Below, piece by piece: positions 5,152-13,829 of a stretch of DNA of 30,473 nucleotides (within the stretch, counting starts at the first letter, position 1; each line of letters starts with the position of its first letter). The notes under the pieces are model-generated. The model was not told the DNA's origin, ran no database searches, and saw only the letters and a program-made list of their open reading frames with translations. The translations under genes and the position numbers were made by a program. This DNA comes from a virus, in IMG/VR virus record IMGVR_UViG_3300008267_000232, positions 1 through 30,473 of that record; one strand, given 5' to 3'.

Positions 5152-8100
5152 TTATAATTTAAAATTGTCTTTAGCCATTGAGTTACCAATAATTGCATTT
5201 TTAACTGCTGTACCGTCTATATTAATTATTATATTATGCGATTTTTGTCCTTCGCGTCCACCGCTACTTAATTTAATCAATTCTCTTAATGCATTAACTA
5301 ATGCATCTTTATTTTCATCTTTTGAGCCTTTTTGAGCTTCATAATACTGTTTTACTGTTGATATAAAATTGGTTGCTGGTTCTAGAGTTTCTTTACTGGT
5401 GGAAGCACTTAGTTTTAATGTTTCGTTTAGTGGAGTTAAAGTTGCTCTTAGAGCAACAGATTTTTCAGCTGGGAACTCATTTATATTGGCATTTATGCCA
5501 GATAACATTGGAGAAACAAGATTAATTTTAGTTTCAGAAGCTGAACTAATAACACTCAATAGAGTTGTTATTGCATTAACAGTAGAAACAAAATTATTAG
5601 CTAATTTATCACTAAATTTGTCTAAATTTGTAATTATTTTTTCTATTATATTATTGAAACCTTTTAATGGAGTTAAATTGATTTGTGATATTGATATGGA
5701 AACAGCTTTAACAGAATCTAAATAACCAGATAAAGAATTTAAATTTATTTTATTATCATTTATATTTTTTATATCGTTAAAAACTTTTGTAATTTTATTT
5801 ATACTTGAAACAAAATCATTATTTATTTTTATTGTTAATTTATCAATATTGTTAATAATTTTTTCTATAACATTACCAAATACTTTTAAAGGTTCTATAT
5901 TAATTTTATTAATAAATAAAGATATTTTGTTAATTGATTCAAAATTAATATTAGATAATTTTGATGTCAAAAAATCAAACGATTCTGCATATAGTTTTAT
6001 TGGAGAAGCATCAAGCTTTGGAAGAGATTTAGACATCTTTTCAAGCGCATCGCTATATTTATTAATTTTTTCTATTTGCTTATCATCAATATTTATAGTG
6101 GATGTATTAATAGAGTTTAAATAACCAATTAAATTATTTATTGGTATTTTTGTGATAGATAAAGTTATATCATTTATTTTTTTGATTATACCATCTATTC
6201 CCTGTAGATAACTACTAATTGGCTTTAAACTTAAATCTTTTAAACTAGACATTGCTTGATTAATAGAATTAGCAACTTTTTCTAAACCATCAAAAGATTT
6301 ATCTTTTATATTAGCTAAAGCAACGTTCATTTGCGTTAATAATTGATTAAATTTATTAATATTATCAGTTGGTAAAATTTTAAATTTCTGTGTAATATTA
6401 GAAATAAAATTATTTAATTTTTCTAAATTATCTGTAGAAATATTAGTGCCAACCGTTACTTGACTCATCTGTGTTATCGATGCAACAGTAGCATTAAAAT
6501 TATACGTTTGATTTTCTGGTATATCTTTTAATTCCTTAGATATTTTAGCTATTCCTTTTGCAGCATCTTCTAAAACCGATGACTTAATTTCTGGTAATCT
6601 TAAAAGAAATCCTAGAGCGTCTGACACACTTTTCATAGCGTCTTTATCAATAGCTTTTGATAAAGCATACATAGCCGTACCTAATGAAATTATTGTTGCC
6701 AATAAAAACGCCATACCAGCACCAAATATAACCCATCCTGCTGGGCTTGCAACCGCTGCACCAACGGCACCAAGAACAATAATTAATGTTGCTAATGAGG
6801 CAGCTAGACCACCAACTGAATCTATTGCCACTGGGGATTCCTTACCTAGCAAACTTATCTGTGACACTAGGAGTGCCATGCCACCTGCCGCTAAACCAAT
6901 TCCTAAACCTATTAATGCCACGGCACCACCAAAAGCTAATAAACCTGCTTCAGCTACCTCTAAAGCGCCACTATAAGCTAAAAGAGCCATTATGACAGTT
7001 ATTGCTACAATGGTACCAGAAAGTTTCCACAAAGCGCTACTAACGCCGTCTAATTGATCTTTATTTAATCCTTTAAAGGCGCTAGCTAATAAGCCAATAC
7101 CACCAGCAGCAGCACCAATCCCAATACCTATGCCTGCTATGGCAACACCAAAACCCATCATTGATCTTCCAAGAGATACAGCCGAAGTGGAAGTTATTTC
7201 AGAAGCTATTTTTGTTTTAACTGCTTCTTCTTGAACAGTGGTACCAAATAGTTTAATTTTAAGTCTCTCTACGAGAGCAGCAAGACCCACGGCCCTAAAA
7301 CCAGCAATAAGTGGAATAAAAATAGTTCTAAGAGTTTGGAAAGCAGCATATAATCCTATAACAAAAGCTGGTATACCTCCGAGTGTTTTATTGAGCCACA
7401 TAAACATATTAACGGCTTTGATAACTAAATTAACAGCCGGTTCTAAAACTATATAGAATTGATAAAATGAGGCTTTTAATTTATCAGTTATTTTTGCTGC
7501 TTCTTCTTCTGCATCTTTAAGCTTTTTGCTGCTAGCTTCTGATTCTGCCATTTTCTGCATCATTTGAGCAGTGGAACCATTGAATATTTGATTTGCTTCT
7601 GCTAAATTCGTTATACCCAATCTTGCCGCAAGTGCTTTTTGTGTCCACTTATCTAGATCAGAAAACTGTTTACCAGACATTTCCATGCCACGTTTTAATA
7701 TTACCAAACGATCATTTTCTTTAGCGTTCATCATTTCAATACCGTCTAGATAATTTCCGCCTAATACAGCATTAAAACCAGCTGCTGCGCGTGTAGCGCC
7801 TTCAAAAGTATCAAATTGATCGCCAATAACTTTTGTTAATGTTGACATTTCTACGCCAAGTGATTTTGCTTGTTTTTCTAAATCTTTAAAAACATTTATA
7901 CCTTCCTTACCATAAACAGAAATCATTGGTAAAGCAGTGGCAAAATCCTGTGTCATTTTTTTAGCTGATATACCTGCACCTATTGCAGAAGCTGCTAAAG
8001 ATTGATTAATTCTTGCTGCTTCCAGCATATTAGTTTTAAATGTTTTTTCAATCGAATTAATATTTCTAGAAGATGTCTCAGCGCTAACACCTAATAATTC

Positions 8101-9000
8101 TAAACTAGAAACCATTAGTGTTACTTCGTTACGTGCTGATGTTCCTGCATCAGAGAAACTGGAAACACCTTCTCTTAGAGTTACAAAAGAGTTTGCTAAT
8201 TTTTCAGAACCTATACCAAAACTAGAAGCCTCACTTAATAAACCAGCAGTCATAGTTTCAGATGCTAGTTGCGTATCGCCGGTTGCAGCAGCTATTTTTT
8301 GTTGGACTGCCAATATTTCTTTAGAATATTGAACTCCTAATTGTATTAATCCATTTATGGTTGTAAAAGATTTAATTTGTTCGGTAAATTGTTTTACTAT
8401 TTCTTTACCTATGTTTTGTCTTTCTTCTTCTGTTTTCTTTAATTGATCCGCTTCTTTTTTTAAATTATTTAATTCTTTAGATTGATTTCTGTACTCAATA
8501 GTGGATTTATTTAATAAATTTTGCGCTTGTGCTAATTTTCCATTTTGTTGATCTTGTAAATTAGCATATTCTTTAAATTCTTTTAAAGTTAGACTTAAAT
8601 ATCCTTTTTCTTCTAATTTTTTAGATAGTTCTTCTTTTCGTTTTTTTAAACCATCAACAGTTTCTGCTAATAATTTAATTTCTCTTTTTCTTTGCTCTAA
8701 AATTTTTTCATCTATCTCTACTTGAACAGATGCGGCTTCTGCTTGTGAAGCAGCTACTTTTTTTAATTCTTTTAAAGCATCTATTTCAGTATTTAAATCA
8801 TCTATAGCTTGAGCGTTTTCAAGAGCTAATTTTCTTTTTAAATCTATTTGCTCTTTTATTACTTCATTACCTTGATTGACCGACTTATTATAATCTATTT
8901 GTTTATTTAATAAATCACTAATAACTTCTAGATATTTTTTAGTATCTATAGTGTTTTCAGTTGTTGGAGGATTTACTGGTGAGGTTGATGGATCTGCCAT
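5152..9000 (-). CDS. Tail tape measure protein
   Basis: This 1282-residue protein has the hallmarks of a tape measure protein. Residues 1-220 are predicted coiled coil, very rich in Lys, Glu, Leu and Gln. Next comes a conserved-looking helical region (about 240-480). From about 535 to 790 there are four long hydrophobic, Gly/Ala-rich segments able to cross a membrane. The last 450 residues are an Asn/Ile/Lys-rich helical region with internal repeats, ending in NIIINIDG and AKDNFKL. Such proteins fill the tube, set tail length and are ejected into the host envelope. At about 0.15 nm per residue the tail would be near 190 nm. The gene follows the tail-assembly chaperone and its frameshift frame, the standard position. 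A perfect terminator lies just upstream, so it probably has its own promoter. Its ribosome-binding site is AAAGGT. No peptidase or lytic motif was seen. Confidence 0.88.
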   Translation of the reverse strand: MADPSTSPVNPPTTENTIDTKKYLEVISDLLNKQIDYNKSVNQGNEVIKEQIDLKRKLALENAQAIDDLNTEIDALKELKKVAASQAEAASVQVEIDEKILEQRKREIKLLAETVDGLKKRKEELSKKLEEKGYLSLTLKEFKEYANLQDQQNGKLAQAQNLLNKSTIEYRNQSKELNNLKKEADQLKKTEEERQNIGKEIVKQFTEQIKSFTTINGLIQLGVQYSKEILAVQQKIAAATGDTQLASETMTAGLLSEASSFGIGSEKLANSFVTLREGVSSFSDAGTSARNEVTLMVSSLELLGVSAETSSRNINSIEKTFKTNMLEAARINQSLAASAIGAGISAKKMTQDFATALPMISVYGKEGINVFKDLEKQAKSLGVEMSTLTKVIGDQFDTFEGATRAAAGFNAVLGGNYLDGIEMMNAKENDRLVILKRGMEMSGKQFSDLDKWTQKALAARLGITNLAEANQIFNGSTAQMMQKMAESEASSKKLKDAEEEAAKITDKLKASFYQFYIVLEPAVNLVIKAVNMFMWLNKTLGGIPAFVIGLYAAFQTLRTIFIPLIAGFRAVGLAALVERLKIKLFGTTVQEEAVKTKIASEITSTSAVSLGRSMMGFGVAIAGIGIGIGAAAGGIGLLASAFKGLNKDQLDGVSSALWKLSGTIVAITVIMALLAYSGALEVAEAGLLAFGGAVALIGLGIGLAAGGMALLVSQISLLGKESPVAIDSVGGLAASLATLIIVLGAVGAAVASPAGWVIFGAGMAFLLATIISLGTAMYALSKAIDKDAMKSVSDALGFLLRLPEIKSSVLEDAAKGIAKISKELKDIPENQTYNFNATVASITQMSQVTVGTNISTDNLEKLNNFISNITQKFKILPTDNINKFNQLLTQMNVALANIKDKSFDGLEKVANSINQAMSSLKDLSLKPISSYLQGIDGIIKKINDITLSITKIPINNLIGYLNSINTSTINIDDKQIEKINKYSDALEKMSKSLPKLDASPIKLYAESFDFLTSKLSNINFESINKISLFINKINIEPLKVFGNVIEKIINNIDKLTIKINNDFVSSINKITKVFNDIKNINDNKINLNSLSGYLDSVKAVSISISQINLTPLKGFNNIIEKIITNLDKFSDKLANNFVSTVNAITTLLSVISSASETKINLVSPMLSGINANINEFPAEKSVALRATLTPLNETLKLSASTSKETLEPATNFISTVKQYYEAQKGSKDENKDALVNALRELIKLSSGGREGQKSHNIIINIDGTAVKNAIIGNSMAKDNFKL
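5506..5949 (-). repeat. Imperfect tandem repeat of about 74 codons in the tape measure gene
   Basis: Two successive copies can be read in the protein. One contains INIEPLKVFGNVIEKIINNI followed by NDFVSSINKITKVFNDI. The next contains INLTPLKGFNNIIEKIITNL followed by NNFVSTVNAITTLLSVI. The PLK motifs are 222 bases apart at 5661 and 5883. Upstream there are weaker half-length relatives (ASPIKLYAESFDFL and LKPISSYLQGID). The outer limits are approximate. Repeats of this type in tape measure proteins are a plausible route to tail-length change. Confidence 0.6.
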
Positions 9001-9040: not shown

Positions 9041-9070
9041 AAAAAAAATGAGCAGGCTTTCGCCTGCTCA
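9041..9070 (-). terminator. Strong intrinsic terminator after the chaperone frameshift frame
   Basis: On the minus strand a perfect 9-bp stem (TGAGCAGGC / GCCTGCTCA, 9062-9070 with 9049-9057) closes a GAAA tetraloop and is followed directly by eight T residues (9048-9041). It lies 8 bases after the stop of the overlapping frame at 9081-9079 and 40 bases before the tape measure start. It therefore separates the tube/chaperone unit from the tape measure/baseplate unit. Confidence 0.93.
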
Positions 9071-9078
9071 CTAGATAT

Positions 9079-9249
9079 TTATTTTTTTATAGTATCTGAT
9101 TCTTTTTTAATTTGATCAGATAATTTATCTATAAACCATTTTCTTAATTGTATTGGTAGGTTATAACTTTCAAAAAGACTAAAACCACCATAATATTTTA
9201 AATAGAAAAATGCTTCATAGATGTTTTGTTGGTATTCGCTACTTAAACC
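9079..9249 (-). CDS. Start-less overlapping frame: C-terminal extension of the tail-assembly chaperone, made by frameshifting
   Basis: After the chaperone stop an open frame continues for 56 codons to TAA at 9081-9079, in the +1 frame relative to the chaperone. It encodes GLSSEYQQNIYEAFFYLKYY, then a GGFSLFESYNLP segment, then IQLRKWFIDKLSDQIKKE. The 'aromatic-rich, GGFS..E...LP...R.WF...L..Q...E' pattern is one I know from the short frames that sit between chaperone and tape measure genes. It has no ATG, GTG or TTG in frame: the upstream in-frame stop is at about 9256-9275 and the only starts nearby are in other frames. The simplest reading is that it is translated only as a fusion with the upstream chaperone, giving about 339 residues. 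This parallels lambda G/GT and P2 E/E', where the long form recruits the tape measure protein. Confidence 0.8.
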   Translation of the reverse strand, partial: GLSSEYQQNIYEAFFYLKYYGGFSLFESYNLPIQLRKWFIDKLSDQIKKESDTIKK

Positions 9250-10099
9250 AAAAGAAGTCCGCTGTTAGCGGAACCTCCATAACCATTTCGGTATCACATT
9301 TAGAACAGTTAAATGTATGGTTTAAATCAACATTTGGTACACGTTTTTGATATTCTGTTCTTAGATATTTAGAATCTACTATTCTAAGAGAAGATAAGGC
9401 TTGTTCTATTAATTCTGCATCTTCTACACCTTCTATAGAAACAACCATGCGTTTCATTTGTTCTAATAAAATAGAATCGCTTCCGCTAGTGTTCTTTTTA
9501 GATTCAGAAACACGAAGTAATTCTTTTTCATCATAGCCATTCAACGCTCTACAAACAACGCGCCATTTAGAAGCTGGTAGTACTATGAGGAAATTTCCTC
9601 TTTCTGTAACTGGGAATTGTTCTACTTTTTCAGCTTGTGAATCTACTTTTTCCAGCAAATTAAAATTATACTTGCTCTTTTCTCCGCAAGATGGACATGC
9701 AACTTGTGTTTTGTATTCTGCACCATAGCCAGAGATCCTAGCGGCAATTATAATTGCATTCCTATCTTCTATAGTTAAAGTATCGGGATTGATGTTTTTA
9801 TCTACTACCAAGGATTGGATAAGTTTATCCAATGCAACACCCTTTTTTAAGAGATTTCTAGAAGTTAGAATATCTTCTTCTTTTGCAGTCATCTGCTTAA
9901 TTTCAAGCGTTTCTTTCTTATGCAAAGGATGATTGGAAGGATAGAATTTGCCACCGGATGGAAGTGTTACAAACTCAGTTGGAACTATAAAATTAATTTG
10001 TTGTGTTTGTAGAGTTTGTTCTGTATTAACAACTTGTGGAGGTGTTGCATCTTGATTTTGTATTTGAGCGCCGACTAGACGTTCTTGATTGTTACGCAT
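9239..10099 (-). CDS. Tail-assembly chaperone / baseplate hub assembly protein, T4 gp26/gp51-like
   Basis: The 286-residue product carries the signature of the T4-type baseplate/hub assembly family (PF12322-like): LPSGGKFYPSNHPL at about residues 46-59, MTAKEEDILTSRNLLKKG at 70-87, and EDRNAIIIAARISGYGAEY at 111-129. Two CxxC pairs, CPSCGEK (Cys135, Cys138) and CSKCDTE (Cys265, Cys268), probably bind a zinc ion. The gene lies right before the tape measure gene and is followed by the overlapping frame, so it most likely keeps the tape measure protein soluble during tail assembly. Long and short forms would arise by frameshifting. The N-terminal 40 residues are Gln/Asn-rich and probably flexible. 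The ATG start follows GCAGGTATAAC, a modest ribosome-binding site. The family call is good; the chaperone role is inferred from position. Confidence 0.85.
   Translation of the reverse strand: MRNNQERLVGAQIQNQDATPPQVVNTEQTLQTQQINFIVPTEFVTLPSGGKFYPSNHPLHKKETLEIKQMTAKEEDILTSRNLLKKGVALDKLIQSLVVDKNINPDTLTIEDRNAIIIAARISGYGAEYKTQVACPSCGEKSKYNFNLLEKVDSQAEKVEQFPVTERGNFLIVLPASKWRVVCRALNGYDEKELLRVSESKKNTSGSDSILLEQMKRMVVSIEGVEDAELIEQALSSLRIVDSKYLRTEYQKRVPNVDLNHTFNCSKCDTEMVMEVPLTADFFWFK
9248..9256 (-). promoter_or_regulatory. Probable ribosomal frameshift site (+1)
   Basis: In the chaperone frame the codons here are TTC TTT TGG. A tRNA-Phe on TTT (9253-9251) could move one base forward onto TTT (9252-9250) and keep full pairing, after which GGT TTA AGT reads into the overlapping frame. 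The zero frame ends two codons after the TGG, at the TAG at 9241-9239. The site is where the two frames overlap (9249-9239), so a shift is possible only in this small region. A -2 shift is formally equivalent and cannot be excluded. The overlap is seen directly; the exact slip codon is inferred. Confidence 0.6.
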
Positions 10100-10148: not shown

Positions 10149-13100
10149 TTAAGGTTTTTTATTGTATAGATTATAATAATATAATAAAATTCTTAATTCA
10201 TCAATCTTTTGATCTTTTTCTTGATTAGGAATTTTACTTTGTTCTACTAGTTTTTTTAATTCTTCATTTGCAGTTGATACTTCTTTTTTTTGTCTTTCTA
10301 AATCATCAATTGCATTTTGTAAATTTATATCCGTAATTCTACCAAGATTTGGATCATAATTAGGATTATAAGAAGTGATTTTAGTTAAATGCAATATTTG
10401 TTCTGCTCGTTCTACATCTTTTTTTTCTTTAAGCATTTTTTCTTCTGCTGTCTTTATTTTATCTTTATATGGATCATCTAAAATTAACCTAGACAACTCA
10501 GATAAAATGGCACCTTTATCTTCTTCATTTTTTGGATATTGATCTAATAAATCCAGTGGTAGTACTGGTGGTGGAATTAGAGTACTTTCATCTATTGGTG
10601 ATGTATAATCAATAACTGCATCGGTTGCTTGATCGGATGGCAAACCAGAAGGTCTACCTTCGGCTGCTAAAAGATATCCTTCTTCACTTGGCGCTGTATC
10701 AAATGGCATAAGACCGTCTGCTTGATCTGCCGCTGAACCAAACTCATCATCAGATAGTGGTTGCATCCAATCTGGTAATGAAGAAAATGGTGCAGATATG
10801 TGGCCCCCGGTATCTGAAGGCTGTGGTTTATTACTGGGGGGTGGTCCCCATCTGCCAGAAGAATCTCTTATCCAATCCTTTCGTATCCATCCTTTACCAT
10901 CAGGATCCCTTATCCATCCACTTGGCGCATTATCCTTCTGTTTTTCAACTGGTTGTGTTGAATCAGGCTTGGTATCTATTATTGATATTTGTGATGTATC
11001 TGGTTGAAATGTTTCTGGTAATATTAGAAAAGATTTATCACTAAGATTTTCAACTGTTTCACCCCAATATGCGTCCTCATCTGCTTTCATCTTGGCTAAT
11101 TCTTCTTTATTTGGAGCTAGTGGTCCAAACATAACTTGTTCTTCTGGTGATGGTATCACTGCCGCTGGTGCTGGTGCTGGGTCAGGAGTAGTTTCCCTAC
11201 TTTTTAATTCGTCTTTGTATATTTCTTGAATAGCTTCTATTTTACGTATTTCTGTTAATATATCAGACCAACGACTAGTACCATATGCTTCTCTGGCCGA
11301 TGCAGCCATAGCAGAACGCACACCACCTAATGATTGATCTGCGGCCACAAGTTCTTCATTAGATAATTTTGCAACATTATCAGCTGATTTATTCACTTCA
11401 TCTCTCACATCTCTTATTGATTTCAACCTAGCGTCAAAATTTTCTTCTGTTTCTGATTGTTCTGACGCGTGTTTTATACTATGAGCCTTAAGAACAATGT
11501 CTCTATATGTTAATCTTGCATTTACAGATTCTTCTGCTTCGGTAATACTCACAGTTTGACCATTTATAGTTACCGTATCTTTACCGCTTTTTTTTGCTTC
11601 AAATACAGCTGATTGAAAATCATCTGCTTCTTTTTGTGTTTCTGTAATTTCACCTAAAAGGTGGTGAAGTTCCTTGTCAGTAGATGATGACGAGGATGCT
11701 AGTATTCGTGCCTGTTCATCAATGTATGCTTGTCTTGTTTCTAATGGTTTTATTGTTGCTTCCGTGCCCGTTGATTCTGTCATAGGTTCTTCTACTTCTA
11801 ATTCATCCGCTGCAACATAACCCGATGTATATACGTAAGACCCGCTATCTATGGCGTTATCTATTGCCGCTTTTGGATCTGTTGCTGTCCAAATAGCTAT
11901 TTTTGCAGCTACCCCAGAGTTATAATCTGCCAATTGTTGTGCTACATTTGTAGTTGCTGTTACTGATGCAGTTGTTGGTTGTGTTGTTGGTAATCTTTCA
12001 CGTCCAGCTTCATCTGCTGCTTTTTCTTCATCTGACCTTAAATCTAAGCCAAATTCTACTGGTGGTGCTGGTGTAGAATCGGTAGAAACAGTTTCTTCTT
12101 CATCAAATTGATCAAAAAATTGAGCGGTATTAGGATCCTGTATTGGCCCTTCTGCTCTTAAAATATCTATACCGCCAACTTGCGCTGCATCATCTTTAAA
12201 TGAATAAGTAATATTATTAAAATTTTCAGGTGTTATATATCCACCTCTAACGGCTGTATTTATTGTTAAACCTTCATAAGTTCCAGTATCGCTAAATGGT
12301 ATTTTTCCTTCTGGTGTGGCAAAAGCAATAGTTTTTGATTCATTTCTCATCAAATAAGAAACTTGTTCTTTACTAAATCCCATGTCATATAATTTATCTT
12401 CAAAATAAGGATCTGGTTTGTCTGATAATTTGTCTATGGATGCAAAAAATTTTGCTCTAGCGGATAAGTCTTCTGGCTGAACTACGGTTGCTGTTTTTCT
12501 TTCTGTAGTAGGAGATTTTGCTACACTATCTGCTGTGCTATCTGTTGACTGTTCCGATTGTACTGTAGAAGAATCTTCATTTTCATCATCAGTAAGTTTA
12601 ATTGGCTCAGATGATAAATCTATTACACCATTAATATTTCTATTAGGTAGTGGATTTAATAAACTTGCATTTCTGTTGCCAGAAGATAATGAAAAATCTG
12701 AACCGCTTATGGCACTAGCATTTATATTTTGACTTTGGAGCATGTCTGGAATTGAAAAATCTTCTTCAGGTTTTGGAGCACTTGGGAATGCCGGATTATC
12801 AATAGGTTTATATATGTCTGATAATTGAGTTAATTTTTCTTTTTCATACTCTATTGGATTATTTTTATTTAAATCGTTATATCTTTCTATGGCGATTTGT
12901 AAATCTACATCTTGTTTTTGGTCTATCTCACTATATAATTGCTTTAATTCTTCTTCTTGTTTTTCTGTAGTTGAAGCTAATTCTTTTTCTTTTGCTCTAG
13001 CTTCTATAATTACTCTAGAACTTTCATCGGTCGAATATTTAGTACCTTCAAAATCAAAAGTTTTTTGTTTAAAAGTTTTTGCTGCTTCAGCAGCTTTAGC

Positions 13101-13829
13101 AAATTTATCTATTCTACCTGCTATTTCATCAGATTGTTTTTTATTATTTAAATATGATAACAATAGTTCATCATATTTATTAATATCTTTTTCTAATTGC
13201 TGTTTTAATAAACTAATCTTTGTTTCTAATACAGCACTGGTAACATCAATTTCTTTATTTTTGCGTACCGGTTTTTCAGCCCAATCATATTGAATAGTAA
13301 AATCAATTGTAACTATTTCTTCTGAATCATAGTCTAGATTACCAAATTTTACGTTTGAAATCCAAGCATTATATAAAGTCCATCTTTCTAATTCTTTGCC
13401 ATCCGTTGATGTTTGAACTATTGATAATTTTTTAAAATTAGAAGCTAATCTTTCTTTAGTTTTACGAGAACCAGAACGGTCGGGAATTACATCTAGAAAA
13501 CCAAAAACATCATAATTATCTGGTCTAGTATTAAAAATATCGCTATTATAATATGAAGAAAAAAGCTCTTCATACAAGATAGTAGAAGCATCTAGAAATT
13601 CATCTTTATTTAAATAACTTATTATAGAAACTTCTATTGGTTTCCAAGTTAATACGCCGGGATATTTAAAAGTATGATTTAATAAACGATGCTCGCTAAC
13701 ACTAATATCATATTCTGGTTTAGAACATTTTTTTAGCGCGTATTTTAAACTTTCATAAAAAGGAATTTCCAAGAACCATCTGTTTTGACGAAGAGGCTCT
13801 TGGAAATTATTTGGATCCCAAAATGGCAT
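10149..13829 (-). CDS. Tail tube paralogue fused to a ~1000-residue coiled-coil/disordered extension
   Basis: Residues 1-195 of this 1226-residue protein are a second copy of the tube protein. It opens MPFWDPNNFQEPLRQNRW, where the tube gene product opens MPFWDPAFQEPLRQYRW. It also shares LNHTFKYPGVLTWKPI (tube: LNHFFYYPGRVEWEPI) and VKFGNLDYDSEEIVTIDFT (tube: IQFGSLDYASEEVVDITLT). The rest is not tube-like: coiled coil at about 200-310, low-complexity acidic Ser/Thr/Pro-rich stretches, a compact-looking segment near 455-560 (FFASIDKLSD, INTAVRGGYITPENF), a tryptophan-rich repeat near 970-998 (WIRDPDGKGWIRKDWIRD), and a C-terminal coiled coil from about 1110. The gene sits 24 bases after the tube gene. 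Possible roles are tube initiator or end cap, baseplate scaffold, or a tube decoration; none can be chosen from sequence alone. I do not recognise the extension. Confidence 0.85.
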   Translation of the reverse strand: MPFWDPNNFQEPLRQNRWFLEIPFYESLKYALKKCSKPEYDISVSEHRLLNHTFKYPGVLTWKPIEVSIISYLNKDEFLDASTILYEELFSSYYNSDIFNTRPDNYDVFGFLDVIPDRSGSRKTKERLASNFKKLSIVQTSTDGKELERWTLYNAWISNVKFGNLDYDSEEIVTIDFTIQYDWAEKPVRKNKEIDVTSAVLETKISLLKQQLEKDINKYDELLLSYLNNKKQSDEIAGRIDKFAKAAEAAKTFKQKTFDFEGTKYSTDESSRVIIEARAKEKELASTTEKQEEELKQLYSEIDQKQDVDLQIAIERYNDLNKNNPIEYEKEKLTQLSDIYKPIDNPAFPSAPKPEEDFSIPDMLQSQNINASAISGSDFSLSSGNRNASLLNPLPNRNINGVIDLSSEPIKLTDDENEDSSTVQSEQSTDSTADSVAKSPTTERKTATVVQPEDLSARAKFFASIDKLSDKPDPYFEDKLYDMGFSKEQVSYLMRNESKTIAFATPEGKIPFSDTGTYEGLTINTAVRGGYITPENFNNITYSFKDDAAQVGGIDILRAEGPIQDPNTAQFFDQFDEEETVSTDSTPAPPVEFGLDLRSDEEKAADEAGRERLPTTQPTTASVTATTNVAQQLADYNSGVAAKIAIWTATDPKAAIDNAIDSGSYVYTSGYVAADELEVEEPMTESTGTEATIKPLETRQAYIDEQARILASSSSSTDKELHHLLGEITETQKEADDFQSAVFEAKKSGKDTVTINGQTVSITEAEESVNARLTYRDIVLKAHSIKHASEQSETEENFDARLKSIRDVRDEVNKSADNVAKLSNEELVAADQSLGGVRSAMAASAREAYGTSRWSDILTEIRKIEAIQEIYKDELKSRETTPDPAPAPAAVIPSPEEQVMFGPLAPNKEELAKMKADEDAYWGETVENLSDKSFLILPETFQPDTSQISIIDTKPDSTQPVEKQKDNAPSGWIRDPDGKGWIRKDWIRDSSGRWGPPPSNKPQPSDTGGHISAPFSSLPDWMQPLSDDEFGSAADQADGLMPFDTAPSEEGYLLAAEGRPSGLPSDQATDAVIDYTSPIDESTLIPPPVLPLDLLDQYPKNEEDKGAILSELSRLILDDPYKDKIKTAEEKMLKEKKDVERAEQILHLTKITSYNPNYDPNLGRITDINLQNAIDDLERQKKEVSTANEELKKLVEQSKIPNQEKDQKIDELRILLYYYNLYNKKP
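10832..10925 (-). repeat. Short tryptophan-rich WIRD repeat in the tube-paralogue extension
   Basis: At about residues 969-998 the protein reads SGWIRDPDGKG, then WIRKD, then WIRDSSGRWGPPP. This is three close copies of WIR(D/K) followed by proline. It stands out from a region otherwise poor in tryptophan and rich in Asp, Ser and Pro. It may be a small binding motif. The function is unknown. Confidence 0.6.

Follow-up and report, generated by a model that had tools for sequence, protein, structure and literature searches.

The window analysed here is a stretch of viral DNA of 30,473 nucleotides (IMG/VR record IMGVR_UViG_3300008267_000232), in which Pfam and PHROG profile matches give the tail gene order as sheath, tube, chaperone and tape measure (Table 1). 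The chaperone gene, TAC-N, matches the gp26 family with its N-terminal part (PF12322 T4_baseplate, E 3.5e-18, 66.5 bits against a cut-off of 24.5) and positions 12-233 of the phrog_150 profile (E 2.7e-17). It contains two cysteine pairs, CPSC and CSKC, and its zero frame ends in ADFFWFK followed by the stop. Directly upstream, between the tube gene and the chaperone, sits a 1226-aa ORF (10149-13829, minus strand) with tail-tube domain matches (PF06841 just below cut-off; phrog_4542, E 1.9e-18). It adjoins an ordinary tube gene of 173 aa and is thus a second, very large tube-like protein.

The end of TAC-N is overlapped by another minus-strand frame, TAC-C, which translates as GLSSEYQQNIYEAFFYLKYYGGFSLFESYNLPIQLRKWFIDKLSDQIKKESDTIKK. 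The original prediction placed this frame at 9249-9079, with 56 codons, in the +1 phase and without a start, and direct reading of the sequence confirms each of these points. The overlap takes in the last 11 bases of the TAC-N gene, the phase is +1 (equivalently -2), and the frame remains open for 160 nt beyond the TAC-N stop. A TAA at 9267-9265 closes the frame upstream and so excludes entry into TAC-C from an upstream start in the same frame. After this TAA the +1 frame reads CAG CGG ACT TCT TTT GGT TTA AGT AGC GAA TAC CAA CAA AAC ATC, and from the TAA into the domain it contains no ATG, GTG or TTG; the earliest near-cognate start codon is the ATC at 9222-9220, nine codons inside the domain. 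Such a long open +1 frame lacking ATG, GTG and TTG is unique to TAC-N among the 20 gene ends in the window.

Table 1. Features of the chaperone locus, with positions given in the window.
Feature	Position	Strand	Remark
Tape measure protein, 1282 aa, next gene downstream	5152..9000	-	phrog_167, E 1.1e-12
Strong intrinsic-terminator-like hairpin with T run, separating TAC-C from the tape measure gene	9047..9072	-	GAGCAGGC-GAAA-GCCTGCTC
TAC-C, +1-frame extension without a start, 56 codons plus stop, GLSSEYQQNIYEAFFYLKYYGGFSLFESYNLPIQLRKWF...	9079..9249	-	Frame conserved in relatives
Zero-frame stop TAG	9239..9241	-	Separated from the slip codon by three sense codons (TGG TTT AAG)
TAC-N chaperone, zero frame, 286 aa	9239..10099	-	PF12322 T4_baseplate, phrog_150
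Slip site TTC TTT TGG	9248..9256	-	Nearly every +1 relative has YTT_TGG
GAC codon before the slip site	9257..9259	-	49/51 GAC
+1-frame TAA, closing the frame shortly ahead of the slip codons	9265..9267	-	Sequence read directly
Shine-Dalgarno-like GGAGGT	9273..9278	-	19 nt 5' of the P-site codon

A scan of viral contigs gave 549 relatives, the best 80 of which were retrieved, and more scans with diverged relatives and with GenBank phages brought the collection to 135 distinct junctions from metagenomic sequences and cultivated phages. The extension lies in the +1 frame in 127 of the 135 and in the -1 frame in 8. The conservation of a start-less +1 frame, which the original prediction had proposed to check among relatives of the 286-residue protein, is thereby borne out, and a chance open frame is excluded. 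Beyond the stop, the +1 frame never closes before 160 nt in the main families (median 229), while the median open length of the other frame is 38 nt, and the extension has invariant or near-invariant residues (G, L, GG, Y, P and LR). Family A comprises the window-like and marine sequences (51 members), and family B the Flavobacterium immuto-like ones. In 22 of the 51 family A members the extension frame has a stop no more than 20 nt ahead of the slip site, and 21 of those 22, the window included, have no start codon between this stop and five codons past the slip. Start codons in the other family members are scattered over many positions, with none in common. A blastn search for distant matches, run with a marine relative against phages, gave no match. 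GenBank annotates the extension, whole or in part, as a separate hypothetical gene in several relatives (L082, 3252-3488; L083, 3366-3476; L085, 3309-3428; L092, 2741-2920; L094, 2813-2971), and the record of the Microcystis phage Mel-JY01 has it starting from a TTG. Recognition of the extension as part of the chaperone gene corrects the annotation of GenBank relatives in which it was taken for a separate gene or missed.

The extension evolves as a protein. Over the 44 codons after the slip, substitutions at codon positions 1, 2 and 3 number 6324, 3542 and 14774 in family A and 9802, 7472 and 22561 in family B, counted over pairs of related sequences that are not independent of one another, although the direction is unambiguous. 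The excess at third positions indicates that the extension is translated. AlphaFold2, run on the extension alone with an alignment of 40 viral-contig relatives, confidently predicts a helical fold (mean pLDDT 88), in which two long helices (residues 4-20 and 33-55) are joined by a short one (25-28). A Foldseek search with this 56-aa model returned no PDB match and no significant hit to viral models, which is unsurprising given its size. In the marine relative L057, the segment of the extension just after the slip site matches Pfam DUF6760 weakly (E 0.014, below the cut-off). This is a family of unknown function, on which our literature search found nothing, and it might tie the extension to similar C-terminal domains elsewhere.

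The slip site itself is fixed to a narrow set of sequences. Among the 127 junctions with a +1 extension, it reads TTT TTT TGG in 74, TTT CTT TGG in 28 and TTC TTT TGG in 17 (the window and 16 others), with TTT CTA TGG (3), TTT CTA TTC (1) and TTT CTT TAC (1) as rarer forms; three +1 members (Bacillus SP-15, Listeria LIS04 and Streptococcus GXN1) lack the motif. The TTC TTT TGG string, proposed originally as a plausible +1 slip, is one form of the YTT_TGG found in nearly all +1 relatives, where it would be the point of the shift. In the window TTT (9253-9251) is followed by T, so a forward move of one base re-pairs fully, TTT to TTT (9252-9250), and in the CTT TGG group a forward move from CTT to TTT is possible, which is a slip of the prfB type. 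In the three TTT CTA TGG members the second codon permits no re-pairing, and the slip would have to occur one codon earlier, from TTT to TTC. Natural variation at the second codon (TTT, CTT or CTA) and at the first (TTT or TTC) makes this a large aligned set of +1 sites that can be tested with a simple reporter.

Codon usage upstream is likewise constrained. In family A, by raw counts that ignore kinship among members, the second Phe codon at the site is TTT in 51 of 51 (80% elsewhere), the Asp codon preceding the site is GAC in nearly all members (Table 1), although GAC makes up only 23% of the other Asp codons of these genes, and the Glu codon within GGAGGT is GAG in 50 of 50 (23% elsewhere). 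These three choices are fixed beyond the needs of the protein, and the choice of GAG creates the GGAGGT, which lies 18-19 nt ahead of the P-site codon and is a candidate stimulator of the shift. Most members of family B have AGGAGG-like matches 28-29 nt upstream. No RNA structure that could serve as a stimulator was found 3' of the site in five sequences, for which z-scores were near 0. The stretch from GGAGGT to the slip site could form a hairpin (TCCGCT-AAC-AGCGGA in the window), but we rejected this element: its outer pairs require G at two third-codon positions, a combination that just 25 of the 51 family A members have. Beyond the end of TAC-C, a hairpin with a T run is present in 21 of 28 window-like junctions at the place listed in Table 1, with differing stem sequences. 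This terminator-like element may reduce tape measure mRNA relative to that of the tube and chaperone, and it is not needed for the frameshift.

How could a frame without a start be expressed? Very probably, one gene encodes two forms of the chaperone, TAC-N of 286 aa and, by programmed +1 frameshifting, TAC-NC of 339 aa. Most ribosomes would stay in the zero frame and terminate at 9239 to give TAC-N. A minority would pause at TTC TTT TGG with the Trp codon TGG in the A site, whereupon the Phe tRNA on UUU (9253-9251) would move one base forward onto UUU (9252-9250), and reading would continue with GGU UUA AGU and so on to produce TAC-NC with the junction ...ADFF-GLSSEY.... By analogy with lambda G/GT, TAC-N would coat the tape measure protein and the helical TAC-C would recruit tube subunits. 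The features of a G/GT-type gene are present: a position directly before the tape measure gene and after the tube gene, a conserved, start-less overlapping extension, and a slippery YTT_TGG within the overlap. Together they strongly support a +1 frameshifted tail-assembly chaperone, and the forward-skipping +1 signal is unusually clear and widely conserved here.

Other routes into the +1 frame fit the same sequence less well. A -2 shift, as reported for phage Mu, would add one more residue at the junction, and the run of seven T in most relatives would permit it. However, the run is broken in the window and in the 16 other distinct junctions with TTC TTT TGG, as well as in the 28 with TTT CTT TGG, and a -2 slip there would bring the tRNA, for Phe or Leu, to a codon that it does not match (TCT in the window, TTC in the CTT group), whereas the +1 move re-pairs. 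Since these two variants re-pair only after a +1 move, that direction is favoured. The original prediction had allowed for either, and its +1 alternative stands while a -2 shift is improbable. Less probable still is that TAC-C is an independent product of re-initiation or of a non-standard start. Several database records do list a separate ORF for all or some of it, and relatives with an independently started gene had been named at the outset as what would speak against frameshifting; only three distant relatives (L090, L104 and L110) have an ATG at the TAC-N stop or shortly beyond it, and no close one does. Moreover, the window frame has no ATG, GTG or TTG, the conserved residues G and L lie upstream of the ATC inside the domain, and the start codons of other members share no single position.

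The T-rich junction also invites explanations that involve no ribosomal shift at all. RNA polymerase slippage on poly-T, for which the T7 run of most relatives would be suited, could yield an mRNA with one base fewer, and an error of sequencing or assembly, or the decayed end of a gene, could likewise leave an open frame out of register. The TTC and CTT variants are evidence against both slippage during transcription and sequencing error. The run in the window has only four T and that of the CTT variants is T3-C-T3, which to our knowledge are too short for transcriptional slippage, and this route is highly improbable. That the identical configuration recurs in independent assemblies, in many samples and in cultivated phages argues against an error, and the retained coding signature argues against error and decay alike, so that this last explanation is hardly credible. 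A programmed +1 frameshift leading to a long chaperone form, by the biochemical steps that we infer above, is by far the best explanation of the locus, and the original observation was right in substance.

Within the same gene family, other solutions can be discerned. The extension lies in the -1 frame after T TTT TTC, the canonical -1 heptamer, in Pseudomonas phage Cassandra (PA5oct group), Erwinia pEa_SNUABM_19, Salmonella Munch, Agrobacterium Atu_ph07 and contig L196 (locus labels L086, L092, L093, L094 and L196). In pEa_SNUABM_19 an ATG also overlaps the stop, which makes a coupled start possible there, and the ATG of their own in L090, L104 and L110 makes an independent start likely in those three. 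L110 retains a CTT TGG remnant despite its own ATG. T4 itself seems to have taken another path. Both gp26 (208 aa, E 8.8e-64) and gp51 (249 aa, E 3.9e-52) cover the full PF12322 profile and are therefore paralogs, and gp51 runs on at its C-terminus for about 48 residues more. In one profile alignment of fused window-type proteins with gp51 relatives, these residues are collinear with the extension (E 2.4e-4); the extension domain alone gives no significant match to the gp51 C-terminus (E 0.45). The gp51 tail is covered by positions 237-281 of phrog_150, which lie beyond the part of the profile matched by the window protein. As the two T4 proteins are paralogs and the gp51 tail is collinear with the extension in that one alignment, T4 seemingly makes with two genes what the window makes by frameshifting, and gp26/gp51 appears, from these alignments, to be the two-gene equivalent of TAC-N/TAC-NC.

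The switch to -1 at T TTT TTC in some jumbo-phage relatives is possibly new, as is a +1 shift made while the A site holds a sense codon. We consider it an even question whether the window represents an undescribed branch of T4-like chaperones, one that shifts +1 at YUU_UGG with a sense codon in the A site, a conserved Shine-Dalgarno-like element upstream and no 3' structure, in a family with at least four solutions: +1, -1 (U UUU UUC), a coupled independent start, and duplication (gp26/gp51). If this is so, and the alternation among these four proves sound, it could be followed directly in one homologous family how programmed frameshifting is acquired, reversed or replaced, and the family would be a good system for studying how recoding signals evolve.

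The +1 slip is reminiscent of those of prfB and influenza PA-X, in which, as is generally known, a P-site tRNA at CUU_U or UUU likewise slips forward at a slow A-site codon. The window differs in having UGG in the A site, where those sites have UGA or CGU, in the distance of its Shine-Dalgarno-like motif, 19 nt as against 3 in prfB, and in its purpose, the production of two protein forms.

Among T4-like phages, the abstract of the study by Vladimirov, Gautam and Davidson reportedly describes frameshifting as conserved in several groups. Our literature search for gp26/gp51 together with frameshifting gave no direct match. However, the PRFect paper, in the passage that cites that study (Virology 566:9-15, 2022), has T4-like phages carrying a short and a long TAC gene (PMC10885494), and the phage Adele paper, where it cites the same work, describes poly-T -1 frameshift signals in T4-like TAC-N genes (PMC12846349). 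The link between T4 and lambda tail assembly, which the original prediction put forward as new, had therefore already been published, together with the recognition of gp26 and gp51 as the two chaperone forms, to judge from these citing passages, and the window locus is a further case of the published kind, a frameshifted T4-like TAC gene. Like the window gene, the T4-like genes belong to PF12322 and provide a short form alongside a longer one that carries a C-terminal domain, and the same passages have poly-T frameshift signals reported for T4-like TAC-N genes. The difference from T4 is that the window has one gene with a shift in place of two paralogous genes, and the difference from the T4-like signals, as the Adele paper describes them, is that the window extension is +1, with no extension in the -1 frame. 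A 2016 review presented G-T frameshifting as widely conserved, with T4 as the exception (PMC5009743). Lambda G/GT and P2 E/E' occupy the same place before the tape measure gene and also combine a short form with a frameshift-extended one (PMC5009743), although the lambda slip is -1 and the window's +1, and no search that we made found N-terminal sequence kinship between these proteins and that of the window. The G-T counterpart locus of the haloarchaeal myovirus HSTV-2, which belongs to another virus lineage and is likened here by description only, has been rated very likely +1 (PMC5009743). The window locus supports the view that the tails of the T4 family share the two-form chaperone logic of lambda-type tails.
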